Shown piece after piece: positions 691-50,852 of a stretch of 55,316 nt of DNA (position 1 is the first letter of the stretch; each line of letters starts with the position of its first letter). The notes beneath the pieces were generated by a model. The model worked only from the letters and a program-made list of their open reading frames with translations, was not told where the DNA came from and searched no databases. The stretch is from IMG/VR virus record IMGVR_UViG_3300025151_000045, positions 1 through 55,316 of that record; one strand, given 5' to 3'. The position numbers and the translations under genes were made by a program. This DNA comes from a virus.

Positions 691-933
691 ATGACTGAAG
701 GTCAAATACAAAGTAAGAAAATCAAACAACTTGAAGCTGAAGGATACTACGTCTTAAAATTAATGAAGACGAATAAAAATGGTATTCCAGACCTCATCGC
801 ACTTAAACCTAATCGCCCAGCTTTATTCATTGAAGTTAAAACCCCAGTAGGAAAACTTAGTAGACTTCAAGAGTACAGGTTGACAGAACTTCAAAGGTTA
901 GGTTTTGATATAGAAATTTACAATGGAAAATGA
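691..933 (+). CDS. VRR-NUC domain nuclease
   Basis: An 80-residue protein from ATG 691; an upstream TTG at 673 is less likely. It is essentially one compact VRR-NUC domain: GIPDLIAL supplies the catalytic Asp and FIEVKTPVGKLS supplies the Glu-x-Lys of a PD-(D/E)XK-type active site, followed by the Q of SRLQ. Stand-alone phage VRR-NUC proteins are structure-specific nucleases thought to resolve branched replication intermediates. Its position next to a helicase and other nucleases fits DNA processing. Length is normal for the stand-alone form. Confidence 0.85.
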   Translation: MTEGQIQSKKIKQLEAEGYYVLKLMKTNKNGIPDLIALKPNRPALFIEVKTPVGKLSRLQEYRLTELQRLGFDIEIYNGK

Positions 934-1027
934 TAACGACTACCTTTTATTTTTTATAATATGGAGTGCTGCTTCAATGTGGGGTATTCTTTTAACATCT
1001 TATTTAATAAAAACAAGTACATTATGA
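923..1027 (+). CDS. Small single-span membrane protein (34 aa)
   Basis: A short ORF starting inside the end of the VRR-NUC gene and ending in an ATGA overlap with the next gene. The translation has an acidic start (MENDNDY) followed by about 20 hydrophobic residues (LLFFIIWSAASMWGILL) and a short basic tail, the pattern of a one-pass inner-membrane peptide. It fills exactly the gap between two genes, which supports it being real, but no family is recognised. It could instead be untranslated spacer. Confidence 0.45.
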   Translation: MENDNDYLLFFIIWSAASMWGILLTSYLIKTSTL

Positions 1028-1419
1028 ACAAAACACAATTATTAAGGGCTATTATCCTGGATCTATTACACCAGGATGTTATGAAGAAATCACAAAAGAG
1101 AGAGATGGTGGATGCTAGAAAGATATATGCCAATATACTTTTTTCTAAAGGGTTTGGTAAAACATTTATTGCTAGAAGCATTTTAAAAAACCATGCCACA
1201 ATATTACACTATTTAAATGACACAGAGGTTTTATTACTTATGGATGCTAGTTTTAAAGAAAAGTATGAGAACATCTCTAATGCTTTTGAAAGGAGATTAG
1301 CTGACAGCAGTATGAACCTAATGAACAGAACAGAGCTGGAGAATGAGCTGGAGAGATTAAGAGAGGAGAATCATGAACTTAAACTTATGTGTTTAAAAAA
1401 AATTAATAAATCAAAATGA
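1024..1419 (+). CDS. DnaA domain IV-like DNA-binding protein with C-terminal coiled coil
   Basis: A 131-residue protein; ATG 1024 is chosen because it forms a 4-base ATGA overlap with the preceding ORF. Residues about 20-60 resemble the helix-turn-helix of replication initiator DnaA domain IV: a basic KKSQKREMVDARKIY stretch, then FIARSILKNHATILHYL, where NHATILHY parallels the DnaA signature DHSTVIH. The DnaA ATPase domains are absent. The C-terminus (LENELERLREENHELKL) is a coiled coil likely to dimerise. Such short DnaA-C proteins may bind an origin or promoter; the target site is not known. It ends in an ATGA overlap with the next gene. Confidence 0.65.
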   Translation: MNKTQLLRAIILDLLHQDVMKKSQKREMVDARKIYANILFSKGFGKTFIARSILKNHATILHYLNDTEVLLLMDASFKEKYENISNAFERRLADSSMNLMNRTELENELERLREENHELKLMCLKKINKSK

Positions 1420-1604
1420 TACCAGATTATAGGGAACGCATTAAACTCAATCGTGTAAATCAAACAATGGATGATCTTCATGATCGAACCAATGACATTT
1501 ATGAGCATTGGGTGGAAGATGATTTTCCAGAAATGAAGGAAGCTATAAAAAAGCAAATTATAGAATTAAAAAAACTACTACATGGACTCCAAGAAGAAAC
1601 CTAG
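1416..1604 (+). CDS. Small hypothetical protein (62 aa)
   Basis: Starts in an ATGA overlap with the upstream gene and overlaps the next, so it is translated as part of the same run. The protein is charged and predicted helical, with a C-terminal KKQIIELKKLLHGLQEE stretch that could form a coiled coil. I do not recognise a family. Context suggests an early DNA-metabolism or regulatory role. Confidence 0.65.
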   Translation: MIPDYRERIKLNRVNQTMDDLHDRTNDIYEHWVEDDFPEMKEAIKKQIIELKKLLHGLQEET

Positions 1605-1806
1605 AAAACGAGGATTAAATTATTACAGACAAGTAAAGGACACAGTATATAAACATCCTAAGAAATCAACTAACGACTTTAGATACCAGAATTTACTGGG
1701 GGACCTGAAAGCCTTGTCTTTAAGACATGGTAACGACCAGGAGTTAGGTGGTGCAGTTAGAAGATTAATACTTAAAAACAATGAGAGGGAACAACACAGG
1801 TGCTAA
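1582..1806 (+). CDS. Small basic hypothetical protein (74 aa)
   Basis: Overlaps the genes on both sides (23 and 26 bases). The N-terminus is very basic (MDSKKKPRKRGLNYYR) and the rest is mixed helical with several Lys and Arg residues, compatible with nucleic-acid binding. No family recognised; the overlapping arrangement is the main support. Confidence 0.6.
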   Translation: MDSKKKPRKRGLNYYRQVKDTVYKHPKKSTNDFRYQNLLGDLKALSLRHGNDQELGGAVRRLILKNNEREQHRC

Positions 1807-2257
1807 GGCTAGACTTAAGATCGCACAACTAAAAGAAGACAGCTTTAGAAAACTTTTTAAAAACACACAACTTCCTACTAAGAAGCAAGACATGTTTGAA
1901 CATTGGGATGTTCAAGTAAACTTCAAGGTTGATGTAAAGGGTTTGAAGAAAGTTAAAATGAAAGACAAAAAGCCTGATGAAAACATCCACTGGATTGAAA
2001 TAAAAAACGTGTTAGGTAATAAAGGGTGGCTATATGGCGAGGCTGATTTTTTTGCCTTTGAAACTCATAAGTATTGGATAGTAGTCCCTAAGGTCCCTTT
2101 GCAGGATTGGGTCGCTAAGAACGTGTCTAAGGAGTTTTTCAGTCATCCAGAGATGTATAAACTCTACAGCAGAGCTGGGAGACAAGATATAATCACCTTA
2201 GTTTCCAGTCACGACCTATATTTTCTAAGCGAAGTGGTGTTAGAGAAGGAAGGTTAG
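1781..2257 (+). CDS. PD-(D/E)XK-like nuclease candidate
   Basis: A 158-residue protein that begins inside the previous gene and ends 4 bases past the tail of the convergent giant gene. A central block (VDVKGLKK, about 30 residues, then IHWIEIKNVLGNKGWLYG and EADFFAFE) has the Asp...Glu-x-Lys spacing of a restriction-endonuclease-like fold. It is followed by beta-strand-like segments (YWIVVPK). This suggests a small DNA nuclease. The fold assignment rests on motif shape only, so the activity is inferred. Confidence 0.6.
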   Translation: MRGNNTGAKARLKIAQLKEDSFRKLFKNTQLPTKKQDMFEHWDVQVNFKVDVKGLKKVKMKDKKPDENIHWIEIKNVLGNKGWLYGEADFFAFETHKYWIVVPKVPLQDWVAKNVSKEFFSHPEMYKLYSRAGRQDIITLVSSHDLYFLSEVVLEKEG

Positions 2258-5200
2258 TTATTTTTAAGCATCTCTGTAATTGCTTCGTTAACGTCTTCTT
2301 TCGCTTCGTTTTGTAATTTTTCTATTTCCTGAACTTCTGGAAGGTTTTCATGATATTCTTCTTGAGCTTTCTTTTCCTGATAAGCTTCAAAGTCTATCCA
2401 TCTTAATGGTTTAGCTGGATCTATTTGATCTTTTAGTGCACCTTTAGGGAAGCCTAGAATAGCTGGTATAGTTTCATCTAACTCTACGTCATCTTTAAAA
2501 AGATCAGACATTGCTAACAGTGGATCTATATTAACACTAGATAGATAAAGCATTTTTGTAGCCATTCTTCTATATGCACTCTCCACTTCTTTATCAGTTT
2601 TTGTTTTGTCACTCACGTCTTGGAGTCCAGCGTAAAACTCAAAAAACGTATCTACTATTGGGTTGTACTGCTTTGATGCTCTATTTCTAGCAGAGTATGG
2701 ATCCATATCGTTGAGGTACATTAAATTTACAGCTTCAAAAATGTCACCTAATATTATTAATGAAGATTGAAACATCTTTAACCCTGTAGCATAAGCAGTG
2801 AGATCTCTCACAAACTTCTCTTCATCTTCTTCATCTCCTGTGAGTCTTAAAAAGTTTCCAGCTGTGAAAAATAAAGCGTTAGCTAAGCTTACATTTAAAG
2901 CCATACTCCTTACAGTTCTCTTACTGAAGTCTTTATTGATAACCATGTTATAGCTTTCTTGCATAAACTTATTAAGCTGTAGTATAGATGTAGATGCAAA
3001 AGCTGTAAACAGTCTAAGAAATGGACTTTTCATTAATTGTATTGCACTTAAATCTTGTGCTCTCCTGGTTTGTTGGGTTTCATTATATTTATTAAAAGCT
3101 CTTAACGCTTTGTCCCTAGACATTCCATTTTCTATATTTCTTTTGTAGTTAATAAAATACCCCATTACACCTAACTGATCACCCACCTGTGTGGTCCACC
3201 CTGCAGCTTTTTCAAATTTCCTGGCAAACTTACCTTTATTTAATACACTTCTATTACGTTGTATACCAGTTGCTAATGAATACAAATCTCCATCTTCTAC
3301 TCTATCTCTAAACGTAGCTGAAACTTTTTTAGCTTCTTGAAAATTCTTTCTATAGTTTATAGCCATTCTAGCTGTGTCATAAGCAAAACCTAAAGCATCT
3401 TGAATTTCTTTTGCAATCACTCCCCCTGCACCTTTTGGCTTGAAGTTTGGATTATAATTATAATCTGCATAGGCAGTAATAAAAGATGTAGCCTGCTTTA
3501 ATATCTGAACAGCTTTAAATGCTAAAACACCAACAGTAAACCTAGATAAGTTTTTATCCAGAAGATCATTACTCATCAACTCCATGAGTGCTTCAGGGTT
3601 TATAGTTTGTGTCAATTGTTTTAAGATTCTGCTGTTTGAACCAGTAACAAGCATAGCCTTGCTAATACCATCAGATTTAAACACTGCACTTACATCTTTT
3701 AACCCTTCAGCATAGGCTTTAAATTTTTCCATTTCTGAAAAATGGTTGTCTAAGACGCTAAAAAAGTCTCTGCCTCTTGTTTGCACTTGACCTAAGTTAG
3801 CTGATCTATTTTTTAAAGCTGATGCGTATTGAGCATTAAAAGCTTTATGAAAATCTCCATCTTTAACAGCATCTACTAACTGTTGTTGTGTTTTTTGATC
3901 TGTTTTAACTTGTCTAGGAAAATAGTTTTTAGTCTTAGGAAGAGACACATAGTTAGTAGCTTCATAAACTTCATTAACTCCTTCGTAGTACTGATCACTT
4001 AAATACTCTACAGTCCTGTCTACAAACTCTTTTGTTTTTGAATCAAGTATCTCATCAAGCTGTTGTTGTAGATCGCTTCTAAATTTAAAAGATCCCCTGC
4101 CTCCCTCTAAAATCATTAAAGCTGTCTCTTCGTTTTTCATTAAAGCGTATAGGTTCATTAACTCTCCAATGTTAAAGTTTTTAACACCCTTCTCCATTTT
4201 TAAGTCTACATTCTTAGAAGCATTATCCATCACCCCCTGAATGCCTTTGTCAAAACCAAAGATACTATTAGCCAGAGCATCCATATAATCTTTCTGATTA
4301 AACTTTCCTCTTATATAGTCCTCACTCATGTCAGCTAACTTATCAATAACATTTTCGCTTAAAAATTTATTGTTTTTCGTTTCCATTAACCTAAGCAGAG
4401 TATTGGTGCTTGATGCAGGGTTTTTAGCTAGCTGATTAAAAAACTTTATATAAAACCTTTTATCTTTTATTTTTTTGAAAGACTTAAGCATTTCATTTAC
4501 AATTTTTCCTGCTGCCTTATCTTTACCTTTAGCACTTAAAATTCTTTCTCTTAAGGAAGCCCAGTTGTCTTTAATTTCATCTTCAGTTAAAAACTCTTTC
4601 TCCTGTATTTGAATAACATTTTTAGTAGATATCTTTTTAGTTTTTTCACTTACAGTTTCTTCGATAACAACTCTAAATGTCTTGCCATCAACCTCTACTG
4701 TGCTTTCAGAGTTACCATCCCACTTATCTAATACCTTAGTACCAAATGTTGTTTTTTCCTCATTACTAACAGGTCTAAAGGTAGTACGATCACTAGTGAT
4801 TATGTCATTGAAAGACTCAGACATTAAATTGTCAGTACCCTCTTTTATCTCTCTATTTCTTCTGGCTCTTTGATAGATCTGATTACCTAGTTGTTGTCTA
4901 GATGCATCCTCTACATTCTTAAAGTTTTGTAAAATACTTTTAATATCTTCTAATGACTTAGAGTTAATTTGAGAAAGTAAACTATAAATTCCTAATTTAT
5001 TCACTAAAGCCATTTCTTCTCTAGTTGCTTTGGAATCTTTAGTCTCGCTTTCCATCTTATCTACAGCTGCTTGCACCTCAGCTTTAACACCTGTCACTAA
5101 TCCATCAACAACATCAAACAATTCTGCTTGCAACCTGTTAATTGTCTTCTCATCATTCTTAGCAAAAGCTTTCAACTGTTTAGCAGCCTCTGCAAAAAAC

Positions 5201-8200
5201 CTAATTCCACTAGCATCTATTCTGCCTTTAGAAACTGTTCTCCCAGATTTACTTCTACCAACCTTAGCTAGATTGGTAAAGTTTTTAATAGTCTCAGCTA
5301 TCAACGCTTTCTTTTGCCTTACCTCAATGTCTTCTGCTAACTTTTCAATCTTAAGCATGCTGGCATCGAAGTTATCTAACTTAGCATCTCTGAGTATCCT
5401 TAAGGCTTTGTTGTATTCACTCTTAGTAACCTCTTTGATAGCTACCTGTTGACGAAGTAAGCTGGTAATTCTTTTCTTCATGGATTGAAGGTTGCTTTCA
5501 TTTACCTTCATGCTTCTTATTTGAGTCTTAAGAAGATCCATTCTTTCGCTTAGATTCTTACCCTCATCAATATCCATTAACTTATCTAGATCCACCTCTA
5601 GCTGTTTCTGAAGTTGTTTGTTTCCAGTCAACAGCTTATATACCTCATGATTCCTTAACAGCTTTCCAGCCATCTCTCTCATCTGGATCCTGGTAAGTGG
5701 CTTACCTTCTTTGTCTCTTTTCTTTTTAGTTTTTTTAAGGGTGTTTCTTATGTCACTAAGCATGGCTATTCCTTCACGCATACCTCCAATTACATTACCA
5801 AAAGATGCAGGGACATTGTAGTCCTGGAATAAACCAATCTGCCCACCTTCAAAATCTATTGTAGATTTTATTTCTTCTATAGTAAGCTTTGGATACATAG
5901 ATTTTACAACCTCTATTATTGAAGCGTCTGTAAAACCTTGCTTTCTACCTTCTCTTATTATCTCTATGGCTGATAAGCCACCCATTACTTCAAACCTAGC
6001 CCTGGAAGTTTTGCCAGCCTCAAATGCTGGATCAAAGGCAGCTGCTTCTTTTTCCATAGCAGTCTTGCCAGAAAACAAATCAGCAAGTGCAATGTTTTGA
6101 AAGTCATCAATACTTAAGTTGGCAATGTCCTCCATCTTAGTTTCTTTACTGGTAGTAAATTTTTCTTGTATGTATTTGTACATACCATTTAACCAAGATA
6201 AAAAATTAGATCTCACACTAGCTTTCGCAATGTTCTCTCCTTTGGTAGCTATACCTTCTACTAATGCTTCTTCTAAAACTAAATCTTCATTAGTTAAATT
6301 ACCATCAGCATCAAACTCACCATACTTTTTCTTTGCTTTCTCATAATAAGAGGTGTCTTTAATTAGTTCCAACCCTTTATTTAAAAGTGCTGTTCCTTTT
6401 TTCCCACTTGCCTTTGATCTTAAAAAGTCAATCCATATGTGACCAAACTCGTGTATAGGTGTTGCTAGGGTTGCTTTATCTGGATTAAGATATATCTGTC
6501 CATCTTTAGTAAGACCCAAAATGACTTTTCCTTTAACCTTACTCGTCAGCACTCCAGGCTCATTAATTTTTTTATTAAACTCTTGTTGACTATTAATAAC
6601 ATTTACTTGAGGAAAAGCATATCTCAATTTTGCTGTTATAATTTCAATTGGCGACATTTTACTGGCTTTAATTCTTGCACCAACAAATGCGTTGTCAATA
6701 AAAAACGAACCACCAACTTGATCCCTAACTTTTTCTTTACTTGGTAAAGATTTAGGTTTACCAGTGGCTTTTTCTATTTCAGGTTTAAATACTCTAGATG
6801 CTTTTGCAAAAAACTCTGGAAACACATTGATGCCATTAGTAGGGGTTTCAAGTACTCCCAAGAATTTACCCTTTGGTCCCCATCCATAATTTTGATGATC
6901 AGCTCTAACTACTTTAGGATTAATTACATCAATACCCATAAACCCCATGACGTCACCTTTTCTAGCTTGCATCATTGCAGGCTCTCCAATATCATCAAGT
7001 AATAATTTTTCACTAAACATACTTTTTTGATCAGGCTGGGAATCAATATCGTTTAACGTTTTTGCAATAAGTCTACCACCAACCTTCTGAGTTTTAGCTG
7101 GACTAAAAATCTTATGAAATAAATATTTTTTAGAATCTAAAGGTAAGTGACCAGCTTCAGCTGTAGCATCTTCTTTAGTTTTTTTCTTAGCTCGTTCTTG
7201 ACTGTCTTTAACAACTGCATCTAATAATTGATCTATGGTTTTAATTTCTGGGTTATTTTCTAAAAACTTTTTAAAGTCAGCTTTAGCTTTTTTTAAATCT
7301 TTCCCTGTTATTGGCTTGTCTAAATCTTTTACAAAAGTTTTAAATGCTTCAGTCCTAGCTTCTAAAGAATATTTTTTTATTGTTGGGTTAATCCATCTAA
7401 ATGTAGCTTCATTAGAATATATGGCACTATCTGCCATTCTCATTACAGTTAAAGGAACCATTCCTTTGTATTTAGGATTATCTGCCCACCAGTTATTAAA
7501 ATACTCTTTATTGTTTTGGTACACTTTTACAGCGTTATCAACCATTTTTTGAGCACCTTCAAAATCTACTCCTGCCCATGCTAGATTTTTATTAGGACCT
7601 AAAAGATTATACATTAGTCCACCTCGAACATCTATAGGATTACCTTGTGAATCTTTGAGAGACTTACCTGTAGCCAACACATCAGACATCGCCATAAGCG
7701 TTGGAGTATTGTCAAATTCTTCTAAAGTAACTATTACTTCATCTTCATTTAATCCCAGTTTTTTTAATGCCTTAGCTATTTCTTTTTTATTTACTTTAGA
7801 TACTTTAACAGCATTCACCTTAGTATCTGGCTGGCTCGTAGGCTCTGTGAATTGTATCTGAGCATCCAGCATTTTGTTCATTGCATCCTCAATCTTTTTA
7901 ATAGACACCTCGTCTTCTAACTCAACCTCTTCTGCAATTTCAAATCTAGCATCTCCTTTCTTAGAGGAGATGTTAAGACCTAGTGCTTGAGCCAATACTT
8001 CAGCCTCATCCTTCACTACTTTTTCAACCTCTTGATCTACTTTGGTTTCTTCTACAACTTCACTAACCTCAGTAGTGGGGGTTTCTGTTTTAGGTGACAT
8101 TAAGAATCTACTAGGACCAATCTTTTCTATTACTTCAAAACCTTTAGATTTAAGCATTTTTTCCATTACAGGGCTAACAACATCTACTTCTACTGTAGCT

Positions 8201-11200
8201 TCAGGATTCATATCTTGTATTTCAAAGGGTAAATCTTTTACTTGGTCTAACAACTTAGAACCAACTCCCTTGCCCTCTACAGACTTATCTACCACAACAT
8301 CAAAAGTATATTTACCTGTTGAATTATCATAAGAAGTGTATGCACCTCCTACAATTTTACCATCTTTATCTCTTGCTATAAATGCTATTTCTCTATCTGA
8401 AGTAATTCCTAAATCTCTTTCTTTAGCAATATTTCTAACTTTGTCTTCTGCTTCGTAATCTATCTCCCCATCTTCTGTTACAGCAGGTTCTAATGTAACC
8501 TCTTGATCTACTTCTTTTTTCGCTTGGTCAACTTGGACTTCTTCTTGATTTAATAAATTATAATATTCGTCTTTACTTAAATTCTTTATACTAATTCCCC
8601 CTCTATCAATTTCAGATACTTGATATCTAGCTGTACCATCATCATATAATTGAACAGTAAATTTATATTTTTTACCTCCTATTTCTATAATTTGCACTCT
8701 TTCTCTAACAGCTACTAAATCTGTTCCTCTCTGTCCTTTTTTTCCTTCAGCTTTTGCTTTTTCTACCGCTTCTTTTCCTATAATTTTTTCTATAACTTTA
8801 TCTGTTCCTTCTTCATATATTGTTAAAGTTGGTATATTATCTTTTGCTTCTTTAAATTCAGGAGTAATTCCATCTATTTCTAATTGTTTTTCTATTTTTA
8901 CTTGCGTCTGGTCAACTTGGATTTTTTCTTGACTCTCTTGGGTAGGCGTTTCTTGGGTGTCTCTTGTTCCCAACGTTTCGCCATCTGTGGATTGTTGCTG
9001 TACATCCACTTTCTCTGTGCTTGGCTTTTGAATGGCATCTATCTCTTGGTTTTTAGTTTTTAAAATGTCTTGAACCTCTTGGTTAGGGTTTCTTATAATA
9101 ATGTTGCTATTAATAAGATCCTTAGAACTCATCTTATTTAAGATCTTAACAAACTGTTTAGCGTTGTATTTTCTACCATTAACAGTATAGCTTTGTCCTA
9201 GCTGTGGAAGCTTAACCTGATTCTCTTTACTTCTTACTTTTCCTGAAGTTATAATCTCATTTATCTCTTTGTTGATTTCAGAGATCTGAGGTCCATAAAT
9301 TTCTTTGCTTTGCTGGTAAAAGTTTCTAGACTTTATCAATTCAGCTACCCTGCTTTTTAATTTTGCCTTTCTCCCTCTACCTCTTACTTTCTGAATTACT
9401 GATTCTACAGTAGTTTTTTGAGATACTGTTTCTTGATCTGTTGGAGCCACATCTTCTGTTACAGCCTCAGTAGTAGTTTCAGTAGTGCTTTCTAATACAG
9501 GTAGTTTTATTTTTATTTTAACTTTACCTGGACCTCCTTTAATGGTAGATGTTTCAATTCCTGGGTATATCTCTTGAAGTTCATTAACAATATTATCAGC
9601 CTCAGCTTTACTAACTACAACATCTTTGTAGTCTGTAGACTTTCCAGTTATACCTTCTTTTGTGGCTTGATTTAATGTTACCTCTTTAGTAATTACATTT
9701 CCATTTTCATCAACACTTTCTTTATACCCTTTCTCTTTAGATTTATTCCAAACCCTTAATCCATCTTTAGAAACACTTTTAGTCTCCATCCATTGATGAC
9801 CTTCAGGTAATTGAGTTTGAGCATTGGCTATCATTTTTCCAAACCCTTTGCCATCTACTACCTGCATTTTAGATGTAAACTTATTAGTTGGCTTACCATT
9901 TTCATAAACTCTGTAATAACCTACAAAATTTTGATTAGTGCCTGTGCTACTAATAATTATATCTACTTGACCATTTTCATTTGAATAAACGCCTGTAGAA
10001 ACTTCACCATCAGTAGTCACATCAGAAATCTTAGGAGCACCAGGAATTCCTGGAGCTTCTTGAGTTTCATCAAATAATTTTTTATCTCTATTCTTTACTC
10101 TTTGAGCAGCCTCTTCAGTAGTAGTTTCTTGATCTGCTCTAAGTTTTTTGTTAGTAAACGCCCCCTTAAATCTTGGAGCCACATCTTCTACTGCTTCTTC
10201 AGTAGCAACTTCAGACGCAACCTCTTCTTCTGCTATTGCTAAGTCAGGGTTGCCATTTTTAATATATTCCTGAGCTGTCTTCTTAGCTGCCAGGTTGTCT
10301 GTAATCTGTTGATATGTCACATCATCAATCTGCCCAGTCTCCCTCATGTTGTTGGTCCAAGCTAAAATTTTCTTAGGGCTTGCAGTTTCTTTCATGATGT
10401 TTTTTACATCTGTCAGCGACTCAGCAAATTGAATTTTTTGAGCACGACTATTAACGTCATACATGTTTTTAGCTATATTGGCATACTGAACAGGAGCACC
10501 TAATGATCCTAACATCTCATCTCCTACTTCATTCCAAGCAAACTTATCCTGATCTCCAATAAAAGCCATTCTTGATGCCTGAGCAGCTACCTCTCCTAAT
10601 CCTTCACCTAAAGTTACTGTTGAAAACTCAGCACCTACCATCGCACTTTTTGCTACAGCAGATTGAGTAAACGCCCTTCTCCCAGCACCAAAGATTTTAC
10701 CACCCATTTTTACAGTCAACATGTTAACCAAAGCAATAGGCACACCTCTAGCTAACCCTCTGTTTCTAGCGTCTTTCCAAACCTCATCATCTTCCATTGC
10801 AGTCTTCCAGTCTTGTGGTAATGTAGGGTTGTAACCCTTCTCAGCAGCCACATCTAATATAGCATTGGTGTATTCTACTAGTCCACTAGCTATAGCAAAA
10901 GTTTCACCTGCACCTTCAATAGCACCTAGTCCTGCACCAATAGCAAGCCCTGGAATACCACCTTCACCACCAACAGCAGCAGTGGCAGCAGCCCCACCAA
11001 TAGCACCCTGCCTACCTCTTTGAACTATTCTAGCACCCATTATAGGGACAGCTATTTTTAATCCATAAGGTAGCATTTGGCTCATAGAGTTAGCAAATAA
11101 TGCACCTGCTACCTCAAAAGGATCTCTAAAAACAGTTGCCCAATACTCACTTCCAGAATCAAAAAAACCTTTTCTAGTGTATCTATTGTGACGTTTTAAA

Positions 11201-13314
11201 GCTAAACTTTCTGTGCTGTTGTTTGCTGATTGCAAGTAAGCTGCAACCTCTTTAGACATCTCTTCTCTAGTTTGTGAGTCATGACCTGTAAGACCCATGC
11301 CATACCATAACAAGACATCTCCTGCGCTACCCCTTTTATAACCTTTGTTAAACTCACCTTTAAACCCCTCATAATTTCTTTTTGTATTCTCAGTTATGCT
11401 TTTGTCAAACTTCATGTCAAAAAAGGTCCTAGCATTTAAGTATGAATTAGCTGCTTCTTTTTGAGATATGTTTATGCTGTTTATATTATTGCTTAGTTGT
11501 CGATATTGTTCATAATCGTTTAGCGTTTTAAGATCCCCTTGACCTAAAATAATCTCACCTTTCTCATTCACCACCACTTCAATATCTTGAAACTGTTTGC
11601 CAAATATTCTTTCTGACTCTGCCTGTGAAACGTCATATGCTTTTTTTGAAGCTTTATCTACTTCTGCTGCTAAAGCCATACTGTTCTGTCTTTCTTTTTC
11701 AGCAAAGAAATCAAACTCATCCATTGTGTCACTAATGTAGGTATCAAACACTGACCCTGCACCATAAACCTCAGCTAGCTTCTCATATTGTTGTTCCCCA
11801 TCTTCAACAATCTTAGCCAGCGTAGCTGGGGTTTTAGGCACTACTATTCCATTTTTTAAAGTCATAAAAAGATCTGGAAATCTTCTAGTGTCTTCTTCGC
11901 TATACTTCTGATATTGAGAATTAGGGTCTTCCAATAAAGCATCAGCTAAAGTTAATTTGTCTTGTAGGTGTTTATAGTTTCTACCCCCTGCAGATACTGC
12001 ATAATAATTTAATCCTTTATCTTCAAAAAACTTAACAGCTTTTTTATTTGCCACATCCATTAAGTCATCTTTGGGTGAGATGTTAAGGTCAGCATTGTTC
12101 TTTAAGAATTCTGTCAATAAGTCAAAATCTTCTATCTGATCTAAGTCAACGTCAATGACATTTCCATTTATGTCAACAACACCAAAACCATTACCTATTG
12201 CATTAGATATAGTAGGCATAGCACTAAAGCCATATCTACCAAACTGTTTATTAAAAGCCTTTATTCTATCTTCTGCAGAGATATTGTCTTTTGCTATTTT
12301 ACTCAACGAGTCATTAGTCAGCAGCTCTGCAAACTCTTGATCATTAGCAATCTGTTCATTTCGTTGATTAGATAATCTTTCTTTTTCTAACCATTCCTTT
12401 TTTTGATTCTCTATCTCTACTGCTTTTCTCTCAGTATATTTTTTTAGTTCCTGAATCTTATCATCACCAGGAGCAAACTGTCTGCCTGTCTCATCAAAAA
12501 TAGTTTTGTAGGTAGACTTACTTTCATCAACCTCTTTATTGTGCTCAGTTAATGCTGCTTCTTTTTTCTTGTCAACAGCCTCTATATCTTTCTGATCAAT
12601 AACACCATCATTGTTTACGTCATACTGCTTATTGTTTTGGTAAGCTTTAGACATCATGCTAACACTGCCATCTGTTGTACTTTCGTTAGCTATAAAGTTT
12701 TGTATGTTTTGCTTTTCATCTGGAGCTTCAGGTTGACTTGTTAATCCTTTTCCACGTTCTCGTGCAGCTGAAAGCTTTTCAATTCTTGATTTATATTCTT
12801 GATATTGTGGAGAGGCATCTATATAAGCCTGGCTAAATTTAACAGCTTCTGGAGTGTCGTTTAAAGGATTACCTGCGTAAATGTCAAGCTTACGCCCACG
12901 TTCATCTCTAATCTCTCTATACCCTTCTTTCTGTTGGTTTAAGAAACTAAAATCTTGTTTAGCTTCTCCAGATTCCAAAGAGCCATCTGTGCTTTCTTCC
13001 TTGGTAGTAGATTCCATACCTTCCTCTTGAGAAGAAAATTCTGGTTCGTCTTTTTTTTTTAATGTACCATCTTGTACCAAAGAATCAAATTCGTCTCCAT
13101 AATAAGATTTTAGTTCAGACTCTCCAACCTCCATACCATTTGGAGTAGTATAAAGTATTTCACCATTAGATGGCTGAATATTTTCAGTAGAAGACACCTC
13201 AGCTTTTAATGTGCCATCCTCAACTAAAGAATCAAATTCATCTCCATAATAAGATTTTAATTCTGATTCTCCAACCTGCTGTCCATTAGGGGTAGTGTAA
13301 ACTGTTTCTTCCAT
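2254..13314 (-). CDS. Giant polyvalent virion/ejection protein (3686 aa)
   Basis: Last gene of the structural block. The N-terminus carries a near-perfect duplication (residues about 5-37 and 54-86; YTTPNG, VGESELKSYYG, DEFDSLV). An EF-hand-like loop (DVNNDGVIDQKD) lies near residue 230, and a Gly/Ala-rich hydrophobic stretch near 745-825 could insert in a membrane. A GNAT-like acetyltransferase block (VDKSVEGKGVGSKLL) is near 1640-1740, and a zincin motif HEFGH is at about 2288. Long helical segments fill the rest, with more hydrophobic helices near the C-terminus. This multi-enzyme architecture matches the large polyvalent proteins that phages package and inject to protect incoming DNA. No DxDGD motif of crAss-type virion RNA polymerase is seen. 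Catalytic roles are inferred from motifs. Confidence 0.85.
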   Translation of the reverse strand: MEETVYTTPNGQQVGESELKSYYGDEFDSLVEDGTLKAEVSSTENIQPSNGEILYTTPNGMEVGESELKSYYGDEFDSLVQDGTLKKKDEPEFSSQEEGMESTTKEESTDGSLESGEAKQDFSFLNQQKEGYREIRDERGRKLDIYAGNPLNDTPEAVKFSQAYIDASPQYQEYKSRIEKLSAARERGKGLTSQPEAPDEKQNIQNFIANESTTDGSVSMMSKAYQNNKQYDVNNDGVIDQKDIEAVDKKKEAALTEHNKEVDESKSTYKTIFDETGRQFAPGDDKIQELKKYTERKAVEIENQKKEWLEKERLSNQRNEQIANDQEFAELLTNDSLSKIAKDNISAEDRIKAFNKQFGRYGFSAMPTISNAIGNGFGVVDINGNVIDVDLDQIEDFDLLTEFLKNNADLNISPKDDLMDVANKKAVKFFEDKGLNYYAVSAGGRNYKHLQDKLTLADALLEDPNSQYQKYSEEDTRRFPDLFMTLKNGIVVPKTPATLAKIVEDGEQQYEKLAEVYGAGSVFDTYISDTMDEFDFFAEKERQNSMALAAEVDKASKKAYDVSQAESERIFGKQFQDIEVVVNEKGEIILGQGDLKTLNDYEQYRQLSNNINSINISQKEAANSYLNARTFFDMKFDKSITENTKRNYEGFKGEFNKGYKRGSAGDVLLWYGMGLTGHDSQTREEMSKEVAAYLQSANNSTESLALKRHNRYTRKGFFDSGSEYWATVFRDPFEVAGALFANSMSQMLPYGLKIAVPIMGARIVQRGRQGAIGGAAATAAVGGEGGIPGLAIGAGLGAIEGAGETFAIASGLVEYTNAILDVAAEKGYNPTLPQDWKTAMEDDEVWKDARNRGLARGVPIALVNMLTVKMGGKIFGAGRRAFTQSAVAKSAMVGAEFSTVTLGEGLGEVAAQASRMAFIGDQDKFAWNEVGDEMLGSLGAPVQYANIAKNMYDVNSRAQKIQFAESLTDVKNIMKETASPKKILAWTNNMRETGQIDDVTYQQITDNLAAKKTAQEYIKNGNPDLAIAEEEVASEVATEEAVEDVAPRFKGAFTNKKLRADQETTTEEAAQRVKNRDKKLFDETQEAPGIPGAPKISDVTTDGEVSTGVYSNENGQVDIIISSTGTNQNFVGYYRVYENGKPTNKFTSKMQVVDGKGFGKMIANAQTQLPEGHQWMETKSVSKDGLRVWNKSKEKGYKESVDENGNVITKEVTLNQATKEGITGKSTDYKDVVVSKAEADNIVNELQEIYPGIETSTIKGGPGKVKIKIKLPVLESTTETTTEAVTEDVAPTDQETVSQKTTVESVIQKVRGRGRKAKLKSRVAELIKSRNFYQQSKEIYGPQISEINKEINEIITSGKVRSKENQVKLPQLGQSYTVNGRKYNAKQFVKILNKMSSKDLINSNIIIRNPNQEVQDILKTKNQEIDAIQKPSTEKVDVQQQSTDGETLGTRDTQETPTQESQEKIQVDQTQVKIEKQLEIDGITPEFKEAKDNIPTLTIYEEGTDKVIEKIIGKEAVEKAKAEGKKGQRGTDLVAVRERVQIIEIGGKKYKFTVQLYDDGTARYQVSEIDRGGISIKNLSKDEYYNLLNQEEVQVDQAKKEVDQEVTLEPAVTEDGEIDYEAEDKVRNIAKERDLGITSDREIAFIARDKDGKIVGGAYTSYDNSTGKYTFDVVVDKSVEGKGVGSKLLDQVKDLPFEIQDMNPEATVEVDVVSPVMEKMLKSKGFEVIEKIGPSRFLMSPKTETPTTEVSEVVEETKVDQEVEKVVKDEAEVLAQALGLNISSKKGDARFEIAEEVELEDEVSIKKIEDAMNKMLDAQIQFTEPTSQPDTKVNAVKVSKVNKKEIAKALKKLGLNEDEVIVTLEEFDNTPTLMAMSDVLATGKSLKDSQGNPIDVRGGLMYNLLGPNKNLAWAGVDFEGAQKMVDNAVKVYQNNKEYFNNWWADNPKYKGMVPLTVMRMADSAIYSNEATFRWINPTIKKYSLEARTEAFKTFVKDLDKPITGKDLKKAKADFKKFLENNPEIKTIDQLLDAVVKDSQERAKKKTKEDATAEAGHLPLDSKKYLFHKIFSPAKTQKVGGRLIAKTLNDIDSQPDQKSMFSEKLLLDDIGEPAMMQARKGDVMGFMGIDVINPKVVRADHQNYGWGPKGKFLGVLETPTNGINVFPEFFAKASRVFKPEIEKATGKPKSLPSKEKVRDQVGGSFFIDNAFVGARIKASKMSPIEIITAKLRYAFPQVNVINSQQEFNKKINEPGVLTSKVKGKVILGLTKDGQIYLNPDKATLATPIHEFGHIWIDFLRSKASGKKGTALLNKGLELIKDTSYYEKAKKKYGEFDADGNLTNEDLVLEEALVEGIATKGENIAKASVRSNFLSWLNGMYKYIQEKFTTSKETKMEDIANLSIDDFQNIALADLFSGKTAMEKEAAAFDPAFEAGKTSRARFEVMGGLSAIEIIREGRKQGFTDASIIEVVKSMYPKLTIEEIKSTIDFEGGQIGLFQDYNVPASFGNVIGGMREGIAMLSDIRNTLKKTKKKRDKEGKPLTRIQMREMAGKLLRNHEVYKLLTGNKQLQKQLEVDLDKLMDIDEGKNLSERMDLLKTQIRSMKVNESNLQSMKKRITSLLRQQVAIKEVTKSEYNKALRILRDAKLDNFDASMLKIEKLAEDIEVRQKKALIAETIKNFTNLAKVGRSKSGRTVSKGRIDASGIRFFAEAAKQLKAFAKNDEKTINRLQAELFDVVDGLVTGVKAEVQAAVDKMESETKDSKATREEMALVNKLGIYSLLSQINSKSLEDIKSILQNFKNVEDASRQQLGNQIYQRARRNREIKEGTDNLMSESFNDIITSDRTTFRPVSNEEKTTFGTKVLDKWDGNSESTVEVDGKTFRVVIEETVSEKTKKISTKNVIQIQEKEFLTEDEIKDNWASLRERILSAKGKDKAAGKIVNEMLKSFKKIKDKRFYIKFFNQLAKNPASSTNTLLRLMETKNNKFLSENVIDKLADMSEDYIRGKFNQKDYMDALANSIFGFDKGIQGVMDNASKNVDLKMEKGVKNFNIGELMNLYALMKNEETALMILEGGRGSFKFRSDLQQQLDEILDSKTKEFVDRTVEYLSDQYYEGVNEVYEATNYVSLPKTKNYFPRQVKTDQKTQQQLVDAVKDGDFHKAFNAQYASALKNRSANLGQVQTRGRDFFSVLDNHFSEMEKFKAYAEGLKDVSAVFKSDGISKAMLVTGSNSRILKQLTQTINPEALMELMSNDLLDKNLSRFTVGVLAFKAVQILKQATSFITAYADYNYNPNFKPKGAGGVIAKEIQDALGFAYDTARMAINYRKNFQEAKKVSATFRDRVEDGDLYSLATGIQRNRSVLNKGKFARKFEKAAGWTTQVGDQLGVMGYFINYKRNIENGMSRDKALRAFNKYNETQQTRRAQDLSAIQLMKSPFLRLFTAFASTSILQLNKFMQESYNMVINKDFSKRTVRSMALNVSLANALFFTAGNFLRLTGDEEDEEKFVRDLTAYATGLKMFQSSLIILGDIFEAVNLMYLNDMDPYSARNRASKQYNPIVDTFFEFYAGLQDVSDKTKTDKEVESAYRRMATKMLYLSSVNIDPLLAMSDLFKDDVELDETIPAILGFPKGALKDQIDPAKPLRWIDFEAYQEKKAQEEYHENLPEVQEIEKLQNEAKEDVNEAITEMLKNN

Positions 13315-27950: not shown

Positions 27951-29054
27951 TTATTTACGTTTTCTAATTCTTAATCTATTTCCATCACTAGGATTGGAAG
28001 TAGACTTAACTTGTAACCCACCCTTAGAGCTTGTTTCTGGAGCTTTATTCATTTTAAGATCAATGTTCTTTGCTTTCTTAGCGTCTGATGTCACTGCATC
28101 AGCTTGACCTTTTTCATAAAAAAACTTCGCAAACTTGTCTGGATAGTTTACTACTGCCAAAGCTTTGTGAAAACCCTTGTAGTCTTTAATTTGCCCATTA
28201 TCATCTAAATAACTTTTAACCCAACCAGTTACATCATTATTTTTAGACTTAAGCTCATCTACACTACCTGGATTATACGAAAAGGTATTATCGTTTATCT
28301 TAAATTCAAAACCTTTGAAATCAGAATTAAACGTTTCGTCTAGTTTCTGCAAATAGTCTTTTCTATTTTTAGCAACCATCTCTTCGTAACCTTGCTTTGT
28401 TTTTTGTTGCTCTCTATAAGCTTCAAGTTCTTTTTGGGTTTTTTCATCAATACCATTTCCAACACTTGACTCAAGGGGAACATTGTATTGACTTTTTCTT
28501 TCCTCAAAGAATTTTTTAGCCTCAGCAACTTGTCTTTTTTTAGCTAACTTTAACTTCTTAATGTCTTTCTCATCATCTAGATCTTCGTCATAATTAAACT
28601 CGTCTAGCATAGAGGCAACATCATCATCATCAAGATATTCATCTTTTGTTTTGTAATAGTTAGCCAAAAGCTCATCAGGATCAACTTTAGAAAAATCTCT
28701 GTTTAACTTAACAAAGTCTTCTATAGATCTCCCAGTTTCTTTTTTGTACTTAAAGTAAGCAGCAACATCTTCAGGTAATTCCTCTGACTTGCCCCTTTCT
28801 TCAAATAACTCATCCAGAGAGTTAATGGTTTTACCATATCTCTCATTAATATGTGAAAGAACATCATCATCGCTATACGATGGTTTTTGATTTTCTACAA
28901 CTTCCTCTGTCTTAGTTTCTGTGTTTTCTGAAACTGGAGTAGATTCTGTAGAGTCTTCAAACTGATCTTCATGCTTCTTTAACAATTCTTCTTCAACTTG
29001 TTGTTTAGATTTCTGTTCTACATCATCTAAAACTCTTACTTTAATATCTCCCAT
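27951..29054 (-). CDS. Putative scaffolding protein (367 aa)
   Basis: Very acidic and Lys/Glu-rich, almost entirely helical, with coiled-coil-like stretches (for example KDIKKLKLAKKRQVAEAKKF) and a basic C-terminal tail (RLRIRKRK). This composition and its place between portal and major capsid genes are typical of phage scaffolds, whose basic C-terminus contacts the capsid protein. No protease domain seen. Confidence 0.65.
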   Translation of the reverse strand: MGDIKVRVLDDVEQKSKQQVEEELLKKHEDQFEDSTESTPVSENTETKTEEVVENQKPSYSDDDVLSHINERYGKTINSLDELFEERGKSEELPEDVAAYFKYKKETGRSIEDFVKLNRDFSKVDPDELLANYYKTKDEYLDDDDVASMLDEFNYDEDLDDEKDIKKLKLAKKRQVAEAKKFFEERKSQYNVPLESSVGNGIDEKTQKELEAYREQQKTKQGYEEMVAKNRKDYLQKLDETFNSDFKGFEFKINDNTFSYNPGSVDELKSKNNDVTGWVKSYLDDNGQIKDYKGFHKALAVVNYPDKFAKFFYEKGQADAVTSDAKKAKNIDLKMNKAPETSSKGGLQVKSTSNPSDGNRLRIRKRK

Positions 29055-48695: not shown

Positions 48696-48794
48696 GATGA
48701 GGTTAAATGCAGGGCAACCACTGAAACACAGAAGTCACACAATGGTGGACTTAAACTATACTCAGGGTAGGGAGTTCGATTCTCCCCCTTATCG
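48696..48794 (+). other. tRNA-like 3' element (T-arm plus acceptor pairing)
   Basis: GGGAG-TTCGATT-CTCCC (48770-48786) is a perfect T-arm with a canonical T-loop. The next 7 bases CCTTATC pair with GATGAGG at 48696-48702 (one G-T pair), as an acceptor stem would. The 67 bases between do not fold into a normal D-arm and anticodon arm, there is no encoded CCA, and the total is 99 bases. It may be a tRNA mimic or degenerate tRNA at the end of the structured region, not a working tRNA. Confidence 0.3.
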
Positions 48795-49032: not shown

Positions 49033-49242
49033 ATGGAACAATCACGCAAAATAAAAATGATCGAAACAATAACTAACCTATCTGACGAGAGACTAAAAGA
49101 GGTATATGAGAGAGTTCTTGATGAGCTACTTTCATTCCCTTATGAAGAGGACTTGAAGGTAAGTCAGAAGTTTATGGAGTTCGAGATAGTAAGAAGGTGG
49201 ACGAGGTCACTTGAGGTGAATATAGTAGGGAAGAGACAGTAA
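49033..49242 (+). CDS. Small helical protein whose stop codon lies in the hammerhead (69 aa)
   Basis: Preceded by a perfect AGGAGG. Helical and charged (ETITNLSDERLKEVYERVLD; VSQKFMEFEIVRRWTRSLEV). The TAA stop at 49240-49242 is part of ribozyme stem I, so a ribosome at the stop codon would unfold the ribozyme and might delay cleavage. No family recognised. Confidence 0.65.
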   Translation: MEQSRKIKMIETITNLSDERLKEVYERVLDELLSFPYEEDLKVSQKFMEFEIVRRWTRSLEVNIVGKRQ

Positions 49243-49321
49243 TACTGATGAGTCCTAGAAGGACGAAACCTAGAGGTGAGGTGGCAATGGGGCTACCTCT
49301 TAAACTCGATGGTCTATTACT
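49238..49321 (+). ncRNA. Type I hammerhead ribozyme
   Basis: All core parts are present in order. Stem I is AGTAATA (49238-49244) pairing with TATTACT (49315-49321). Core CTGATGA is at 49245-49251. Stem II is GTCCT-AGA-AGGAC (49252-49264) with the conserved G-C first pair. Core GAAA is at 49265-49268. Stem III opens with ACC/GGT, has an inner GAG/CTC, and a distal GAGGTGGC/GCTACCTC stem with loop AATGGG. The cleavage triplet GTC is at 49312-49314, predicting a cut after 49314. Both ends lie in stem I, hence type I. Cleavage would separate the upstream gene's mRNA from a downstream message with a 27-base leader. Confidence 0.92.
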
Positions 49322-49341: not shown

Positions 49342-49464
49342 GTGAGACTATACACAAATGGAAACACTTGGAAATACTCATTAAGAATGGGTAGACTTTG
49401 GTTCTATTGGAAGCCAATTAAGAAAGGTAGAAAAAGATTTATTATTCAATTAACTAAAAATTAA
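49342..49464 (+). CDS. Small basic protein with GTG start (40 aa)
   Basis: First ORF after the hammerhead cut. GTG 49342 is chosen because its leader (ATTAAAATT) matches the leader of the next gene (ATTAAAATTATG). The peptide is aromatic and basic (GRLWFYWKPIKKGRKRFIIQ), plausible for nucleic-acid or membrane contact. No family recognised. Confidence 0.5.
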   Translation: MRLYTNGNTWKYSLRMGRLWFYWKPIKKGRKRFIIQLTKN

Positions 49465-49468
49465 AATT

Positions 49469-49660
49469 ATGAATCAGGAAATAACACTTCAGTTGACAGA
49501 AGGTCAACCAATATTTTACTCACGTTCTGGAAATTTACCGAAGGTACAGAAGGAACTAATACTCATCGATGGACTATCTGAAATAGATGTCCTTCCATTA
49601 TCGAAGATGGGAAAGAGGTTTAAGAAGAACATTCAAGAATTGTCTAATCTAATATTTTAA
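49469..49660 (+). CDS. Small hypothetical protein (63 aa)
   Basis: Beta-rich start (MNQEITLQLTEGQPIFYSRS), then a helical basic end (SKMGKRFKKNIQELSNLIF). Leader ATTAAAATT as in neighbours. Gap of 4 bases to the gene upstream and 3 to the gene downstream, so part of a polycistronic message. Unrecognised. Confidence 0.6.
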   Translation: MNQEITLQLTEGQPIFYSRSGNLPKVQKELILIDGLSEIDVLPLSKMGKRFKKNIQELSNLIF

Positions 49661-49663
49661 ATT

Positions 49664-49876
49664 ATGTCAGAGGAAATACAAGAGTTCCTAAAGGAATTAA
49701 ACACAGAGCTAAAGATTACAGTAAAGCAACTGAAAGATTTTTACATCAACAGTGGTCGTCTAGATGAATACGATGATAGACACCAATGGACAGATGAAGA
49801 TATTCTTGACTATGCCCTCAATGATGAAGGGTGGTTGATAGAGTATGATAAATTTATTAATCAACATAAAAAATAG
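49664..49876 (+). CDS. Small acidic protein (70 aa)
   Basis: Acidic, helical (MSEEIQEFLKELNTELKITV) with an Asp-rich centre (GRLDEYDDRHQWTDEDILDY). Small acidic proteins in this kind of region can be DNA mimics, but this is only a compositional hint. Precedes the ArdC-like gene by 4 bases. Confidence 0.6.
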   Translation: MSEEIQEFLKELNTELKITVKQLKDFYINSGRLDEYDDRHQWTDEDILDYALNDEGWLIEYDKFINQHKK

Positions 49877-49880
49877 AGCA

Positions 49881-50852
49881 ATGGCACAGAAGAAAAAAAC
49901 AGATATCTATGAGAAGATTACTAACATAGTTATCAAGGGACTACAAGAGAAGGGCTTGAATTGGTTCAAGTCTTGGACTAACGAATATGGTCAAGAGATG
50001 TTACCAGTGAATCACATCTCAGGTAAAGCGTATAGAGGAATCAATGTCTTTATCTGCTACGCTTCAGCAATGGAGTATGGATATCCAACGAATGAGTGGA
50101 TAGGGTACAAACAAGCCAAGGATATGGGATACAAAGTCCCTAAGGGAGCTACTGAGATATTCTATTGGTATACGATGTACTTCGATGCAACCAAGAAGAA
50201 ATGGATATACTTTGGTGAGTACAAGAAGTTAACCAAAGGGATGAGTGCAGAAGACAAAGCCAATAGGTTTACTCAGAGAATGTTCCCTAAGTCTCAGTTC
50301 GTATGGAACATAGCTCAGTTAACTGAAACGTTAGATGGCAAGTCAGCTACTGTAGAACCTAAGTGGACTCCACAGAAACCAATGATCATTGAAGACAAGA
50401 ACGCAGAGATTAAAAAAGCGAAGGCTGTCTACAAGAATATGGAGCTCAAGCCTTCCTTGAGACATGGAGGTAGCAGAGCATACTACAGACCATCAGCACA
50501 CCACATACAGATGCCTAAGCTAGAGACGTTCAAGACATCAGAGGACTACTACAAGGTACTGTTTCACGAGATGGTACACTCTACAGGTAACGAGCAGATA
50601 CTCAACAGAAAGGGAGTGGCTAAGTTCAATGGCTTTGGCACTGAGACTTACTCAAGAGAGGAACTTGTAGCTGAGGTAGGGTCAATGATGCTGTGCTCTA
50701 AGATAAATCTGATACCATCAGATGAGTACACTAACAGTAAAGCCTACATCAATGGATGGGTGAAGTACTTGAAGAATCACAAGAAAGAAGTGATGACTGC
50801 TTGTGCTCAGTCACAGAAGGCTGTCGAATATATCTTAAATGAAACCAAATAA
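49881..50852 (+). CDS. ArdC-like antirestriction protein (323 aa)
   Basis: ATG 49881 (MAQKKKTDIYEKITN) is used; the earlier in-frame start would overlap the previous gene. The N-terminal ssDNA-binding domain (about 5-140) has SGKAYRGINVFICYASA, EWIGYKQAKDMGYKVPKGA and IFYWYTMYF landmarks. The C-terminal zincin domain has HEMVHSTG with zinc ligands H229 and H233 and catalytic E230, and REELVAEVGSMML supplies a third ligand. ArdC-type proteins protect incoming ssDNA and counter restriction. Its stop codon begins the first of three homologous spacers. Confidence 0.85.
   Translation: MAQKKKTDIYEKITNIVIKGLQEKGLNWFKSWTNEYGQEMLPVNHISGKAYRGINVFICYASAMEYGYPTNEWIGYKQAKDMGYKVPKGATEIFYWYTMYFDATKKKWIYFGEYKKLTKGMSAEDKANRFTQRMFPKSQFVWNIAQLTETLDGKSATVEPKWTPQKPMIIEDKNAEIKKAKAVYKNMELKPSLRHGGSRAYYRPSAHHIQMPKLETFKTSEDYYKVLFHEMVHSTGNEQILNRKGVAKFNGFGTETYSREELVAEVGSMMLCSKINLIPSDEYTNSKAYINGWVKYLKNHKKEVMTACAQSQKAVEYILNETK

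Follow-up and report, generated by a model that had tools for sequence, protein, structure and literature searches.

A hammerhead-like element that overlaps the stop codon of a small phage gene raises the question of whether it is a genuine ribozyme and what a self-cleaving RNA would do at this place. The element lies in a linear virus record of 55,316 bases (IMGVR_UViG_3300025151_000045), which was analysed at its full length and is called the window here. The major capsid protein of the window shows 62% identity to that of MW202828 (Manatee Spring podovirus), 50% to that of Maribacter phage Panino and 43-44% to those of Flavobacterium elemo phages. Thus, the window is assigned to a Bacteroidota-type podovirus. 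Its minus strand carries the structural genes and GroEL, and its plus strand carries the ArdC operon. The structural arm includes one open reading frame of 3,686 amino acids (positions 2254-13314, minus strand); the related MW202828 possesses a gene of similar giant size at 741-12320. No nucleotide similarity to the hammerhead region was found in annotated phages, and the hammerhead was absent from the stretches examined of MW202828 and Panino, the nearest annotated phages. Sigma-70 promoter-like sites occurred at chance frequency.

The hammerhead core is complete (C3 U4 G5 A6 N7 G8 A9, G12 A13 A14, the A15.1-U16.1 pair and H17 of the triplet GUC). Both the minimum free energy (MFE) fold and the centroid fold correspond exactly to the hammerhead structure (-28.2 kcal/mol, z -2.35), with 7 bp in stem I and 5 bp in stem II (Table 1). 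Stem III is not one helix: two 3-bp segments flank a UA/GAU internal loop, and an 8-bp hairpin follows. According to the MFE fold and the covariation in relatives, the three helices meet at the core and the core-adjacent pairs are intact. Stem I is open to the flanks and stems II and III are closed by loops, as in type I hammerheads. Inspection by eye revealed no obvious loop-loop pairing through which stems I and II could make the tertiary contact that gives fast cleavage, and no clear contact of this kind could be assigned. A first-pass annotation of the DNA had already read all core bases, all three stems and a TAA inside stem I from the sequence; direct reading, the MFE fold and the covariance search described below bear this out. 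The small neighbouring open reading frames gave no Pfam match, and a tblastn match for the 63-aa protein was not found. The 40-aa frame is preceded by an A/T-rich leader, ttaaaattaaaatt, and the same leader stands before the next gene.

Table 1. Positions of the ribozyme parts and neighbouring genes in the window, and of tRNA-like minihelices in other loci
Feature	Position	Strand	Basis or remark
Upstream 69-aa ORF	49033-49242	+	TAA stop 49240-49242 within stem I; no Pfam match
Stem I, 5' strand AGUAAUA	49238-49244	+	sequence and fold
Core CUGAUGA	49245-49251	+	pattern search
Stem II hairpin GUCCU-AGA-AGGAC	49252-49264	+	fold; strands 49252-49256 / 49260-49264
Core GAAA	49265-49268	+	GAA 49265-49267, A 49268 = A15.1; sequence and covariance model R1
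Stem III	49268-49313	+	outer ACC 49268-49270 / GGU 49311-49313; fold
Stem III internal loop UA/GAU	49271-49272 / 49308-49310	+	conserved in 54 loci
Stem III, inner part	hairpin 49278-49299	+	GAG/CUC, then 8-bp hairpin; fold
C17, predicted cleavage after it	49314	+	type I topology and R1
Stem I, 3' strand UAUUACU	49315-49321	+	downstream RNA predicted to begin here with a 5'-OH; fold
GTG-started 40-aa ORF	49342-49464	+	start 28 nt after C17
63-aa ORF	49469-49660	+	counterpart (by eye) of the L121 67-aa ORF just downstream of its second hammerhead
ArdC anti-restriction protein	49845-50852	+	Pfam domains ArdcN and MPTase-PolyVal
Minihelices, minus-strand copies	L306 4377-4420, L307 3833-3876, L310 1476-1519, L321 1292-1335	-
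Further minus-strand minihelices	L202 12219-12262, L204 289-332	-
Other minihelices (more exist)	L124 3066-3106, L063 5314-5354, L121 4568-4609, L266 1269-1310

A covariance model of 28 phage loci (R1), from which the window and its closest relative L121 were left out, was searched against the window. It revealed the hammerhead with 56.8 bits and E = 4.9e-15, the R1 loci having been collected with a subclass-derived pattern in which the fixed letters were preselected and the pairs of stem I, stem II and inner stem III were not. No second match appeared up to E = 10. Sequence simulated with the dinucleotide composition of the window (186 Mb) yielded 76 hammerheads, all permutations counted, under limits looser than those that the window hammerhead passes. 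This corresponds to about 0.02 per window, and none of the 76 equalled the window hammerhead in compactness and pairing. The whole window contains no other complete or degenerate hammerhead in any permutation; a loose type II pattern at 28774 was chance-like.

An Rfam scan of the window at the gathering threshold yielded no hammerhead match. The top partial match was Hammerhead_HH9 (RF02275) with 16.2 bits; core and stem II agree with this model, but the match is confined to the core region, the gathering score of 52 lies far above it and HH9 is a separate hammerhead family. The first-pass annotation had named a score below the gathering threshold as evidence against the ribozyme. The score is indeed below, yet it is not valid as a refutation: in a control of 16 loci with more than 20 clear phage hammerheads the same models detected only one, a type II. 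Consequently, the silence of Rfam on the window carries no weight. Most of the phage hammerheads tried here escape the current Rfam models.

IMG/VR was scanned with a pattern for one stem II variant, which returned at least 119 stretches; nearly all of these contain a complete hammerhead of type I or III. Among the ArdC relatives the nearest, L121 (53% identity), carries two hammerheads on one strand, at 5172 and 5708. They share stem I and the stem III loop with the window, differ by compensated changes in stem II and hold the TAA of their upstream reading frame at the same place in stem I. The second one precedes the counterpart of the window 63-aa gene, which is followed by ArdC.

The window hammerhead belongs to a subclass with the stem III signature ACC-UA-G...C-GAY-GGU, a 2x3 internal loop. 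Scanning for this signature revealed 54 non-redundant complete type I ribozymes, among which stem I occurs in 28 sequence versions; of ten loci matched by a first stem III pattern, six proved to be non-hammerheads and were left out. Across the subclass 93% of stem I positions pair, against 49% with swapped partners; the corresponding values are 99% and 71% for stem II and 96% and 66% for inner stem III. In the 28-sequence alignment 95.5% of the cells are paired, compared with 71.3% after shuffling and at most 47% in slid controls, and the relatives' alignment holds 107 two-sided changes versus 30 in shuffles. Beyond viruses the subclass was found in genome contigs, mostly of Paenibacillus and also of Cohnella, Rhizobium, Polaromonas and an unclassified Bacilli MAG.

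Bias towards the loop was examined by a scan with all five loop letters open, which returned its full list of matches, followed by classification of the complete hammerheads across all loci. The compact 2x3 loops comprised 30 UA/GAY and two UA/AAU loops and only two others, which can be read as bulged helices; this count leans to UA/GAY, since it includes loci fetched with the UA/GAY pattern. No further true 2x3 loop came out of the open-letter scan, and the UA/GAY loop was not merely a product of the search pattern. UA_handle, UAA/GAN and the 11-nt-receptor are known internal-loop types. We take the UA/RAY loop to resemble the UA-handle type (CUA / (R)AYG), in which U and A likely form a reverse-Hoogsteen pair and a pyrimidine is bulged out; its likeness to the three types is one of sequence.

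There is strong support for reading 49238-49321 as a complete type I hammerhead. That the element is a catalytically dead relic or a chance look-alike would agree with the missing Rfam gathering match and the interrupted stem III, and is very unlikely: the interruption is itself the conserved motif, the core is intact, the R1 search gave a highly significant E value and even much looser structures are expected far less than once per window.

The hammerheads also keep a constant orientation. Among 80 phage ArdC loci the compact hammerheads lie on the ArdC strand in 27 of 27 cases, and among 51 phage GroEL loci they lie opposite the GroEL strand in 20 of 20, most of them at a distance of about 2-5 kb, which also holds for the window; both counts include related phages. 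A loose type II pattern within the ArdC gene of L226 was set aside from the strand count. The contig L305/L229, whose GroEL is the most similar (72% identical), lacks a hammerhead at the corresponding place, and a rescan of L305 gave only noise. Thus, the hammerhead is dispensable and comes and goes.

The two L121 copies, 536 nt apart on one strand, form a paired layout which recalls retrozymes and viroid-like RNAs, where ribozymes serve to circularise or ligate an RNA element. Such a function is highly improbable for the window, which has a single copy where a retrozyme has two flanking hammerheads. Moreover, the L121 interval carries two ordinary reading frames, and Perreault et al. (PMC3088659) sought circular or spliced products and found none.

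The position of the stop codon was compared between topologies in loci that are related by descent and hence not fully independent. An upstream reading frame is clear in 173 type I hammerheads. Their stops are located at the 5' edge of stem I (median -2 nt), and 60% of them fall within -5 to +10 (53% counting one per locus). In contrast, the stop of 45 type III hammerheads is located about 35 nt before the ribozyme, with 2% within the same interval. The gap between stop and type III ribozyme is filled by a strong hairpin (mean z -2.2 versus -0.2 for 506 other stops of the same loci, p = 6e-11, with the same dependence by descent), and this hairpin abuts stem III with a gap of 0 nt in 27 of 37 cases. 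The upstream product of a type I ribozyme ends in stem III itself. Thus, both topologies leave a hairpin at the 3' end of the upstream mRNA. The median distance from stop to cut is about 55 nt in type I and about 40 nt in type III; the predicted cut of the window, 74 nt past the TAA and 28 nt ahead of the next start, is inside the type I range.

A near-identical hairpin, GTGTCTTCAAAGACAC, and its variants recur just before type III ribozymes of many phages, for example at L018 3342, L032 618, L048 2505 (minus strand) and L049 1701. In the GroEL phages L336, L337, L338, L339 and L343 (minus strand, near 1607-1867) the stem III loop of a type I hammerhead contains an apparent intrinsic terminator, AGCCCGCTCAGGCGGGTTTGTT.

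The stop overlap could reflect compaction only, with a real hammerhead that splits the operon and a 3' hairpin that has no role. Genes around the hammerhead region are indeed densely packed according to the list of reading frames, and splitting of operons was proposed in 2011 (main text of PMC3088659). However, simple compaction would not give the observed difference between the types, because the same stop spacing would be expected for both, and type III hammerheads have a dedicated hairpin before the cut. We therefore regard compaction alone as a possible but rather unlikely account.

The overlap could also act as a translation-coupled switch. A ribosome terminating on the TAA would cover stem I and CUGAUGA and delay cleavage during translation of the upstream gene; cleavage would go ahead once translation ceases, so that the ribozyme would report translation. 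The TAA is inside stem I in the window and in both L121 ribozymes, the stop falls in stem I or the core in 72 of 165 type I phage hammerheads, and type III keeps the stop away from the ribozyme. On the other hand, many type I stops stand just outside stem I, compact genomes put any element directly behind a stop, and the upstream product keeps the whole core, so that a single cleavage between ribosomes suffices. A switch of this kind is doubtful and stands behind compaction in our estimate. The physical link of stop and ribozyme that the first-pass annotation had drawn holds as geometry and recurs in L121 and, statistically, in phage type I hammerheads. Termination and cleavage may act on one another, and the two transcript halves may come to differ in ratio. 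The cut after 49314 between the 69-aa and 40-aa genes fits the anatomy and the layout in the relatives, and as a cleavage event it is predicted from sequence.

We consider it probable that this Bacteroidota podovirus carries, in its early operon with ArdC, a type I hammerhead which is functional and acts as a terminator-like maker of 3' ends and as an operon divider placed directly on a stop codon. Structure, covariation, conserved strand and placement are computed, and from them we infer cleavage in vivo, end protection and an effect on expression. The nascent transcript would fold and cut itself co-transcriptionally after C49314. Hammerhead cleavage leaves a 2',3'-cyclic phosphate on the upstream product and a 5'-OH on the downstream product. 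The upstream RNA would accordingly retain the ribozyme and end in the stem III hairpin with a one-base overhang and a 2',3'-cyclic phosphate, and this terminal hairpin should shield the mRNA from 3'-to-5' exonucleases. On the downstream RNA the new 5'-OH would lie 27 bases ahead of the next start codon, and the portion for the 40-aa, 63-aa and 70-aa proteins and ArdC would gain a fresh 5' end. Because a ribosome halted on this stop codon would occupy stem I and the core, translation may compete with cleavage.

More generally, the cuts that phage hammerheads make in early-operon transcripts may serve to give the upstream mRNA a protective 3' hairpin. Tentatively, and with somewhat less than even confidence, we propose that phage hammerheads as a whole are a class of elements by which ribozymes make the 3' ends of mRNAs. 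Type I ribozymes would begin on the stop and provide stem III as the protective hairpin, type III ribozymes would have a separate hairpin from stop to cut, and in the subclass of the window the UA/RAY handle of stem III would additionally serve docking or stability. The phage loci provide a testable rule: the stop lies at the 5' edge, a terminal hairpin precedes or belongs to the ribozyme, and the cut falls at a set distance past the stop. This rule makes a role in mRNA 3'-end formation directly testable.

The ribozyme of the window is ordinary in kind, and phage hammerheads are already known. According to the main text of Perreault et al. (2011, PMC3088659), phage and prophage hammerheads flank genes including ardA, those flanking ardA in prophages cleave in vitro and in vivo, and a role in processing long phage transcripts and operons was proposed. 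A 2017 review described the role of prokaryotic hammerheads as still an open question (PMC6155905). The window hammerhead shares with the type I hammerheads of Perreault et al. the core, the open stem I, the phage operon, copies flanking small genes and a nearby anti-restriction gene, which is ardA in their case and ArdC in the window (PMC3088659). It differs by the conserved internal loop of stem III and by the stop codon inside stem I. The main text of the 2011 paper does not mention the conserved UA/GAY loop in stem III, does not contain the words "stop codon" and does not describe the type III hairpin (PMC3088659). The novelty of subclass, stop placement and type III hairpin, judged against this main text, is unproven. 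The type III phage hammerheads (for example L011, L018, L023 and L048) likewise stand between same-strand phage genes with a hairpin at the upstream mRNA 3' end. In contrast to the window, their ribozyme stays with the downstream RNA, a separate hairpin precedes the cut and the stop is about 35 nt upstream.

A recurrent tRNA-like minihelix of about 45 nt was also observed, often less than 2 kb from a hammerhead and on the same strand (Table 1). It consists of an acceptor stem of 6-7 bp, a linker of 11-16 nt and a T-arm with a TTCGANT loop; D and anticodon arms are absent, and TGG in the linker is invariant in 14 aligned copies. Across the loci (5.9 Mb, both strands) 28 different copies were counted, against none in shuffled sequence. 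ARAGORN did not detect the minihelix in L121 and L124, and Rfam gave only a sub-gathering tmRNA score for that of L306. The minihelix is possibly an RNase P-type processing signal, in which TGG may mimic the GG of a D-loop. The window contains at 48696-48794 (plus strand) a T-arm, GGGAG-TTCGATT-CTCCC, followed by CCTTATC, with a candidate acceptor strand GATGAGG 74 nt upstream; ARAGORN reported nothing in this segment, which is perhaps an enlarged minihelix or the remnant of a tRNA 3' end. In L121 a 141-nt stretch at 4616-4759, upstream of the hammerhead operon, shows a perfect 7-bp acceptor-like stem (ATCCCTA/TAGGGAT), a T-arm and an encoded ACCA.
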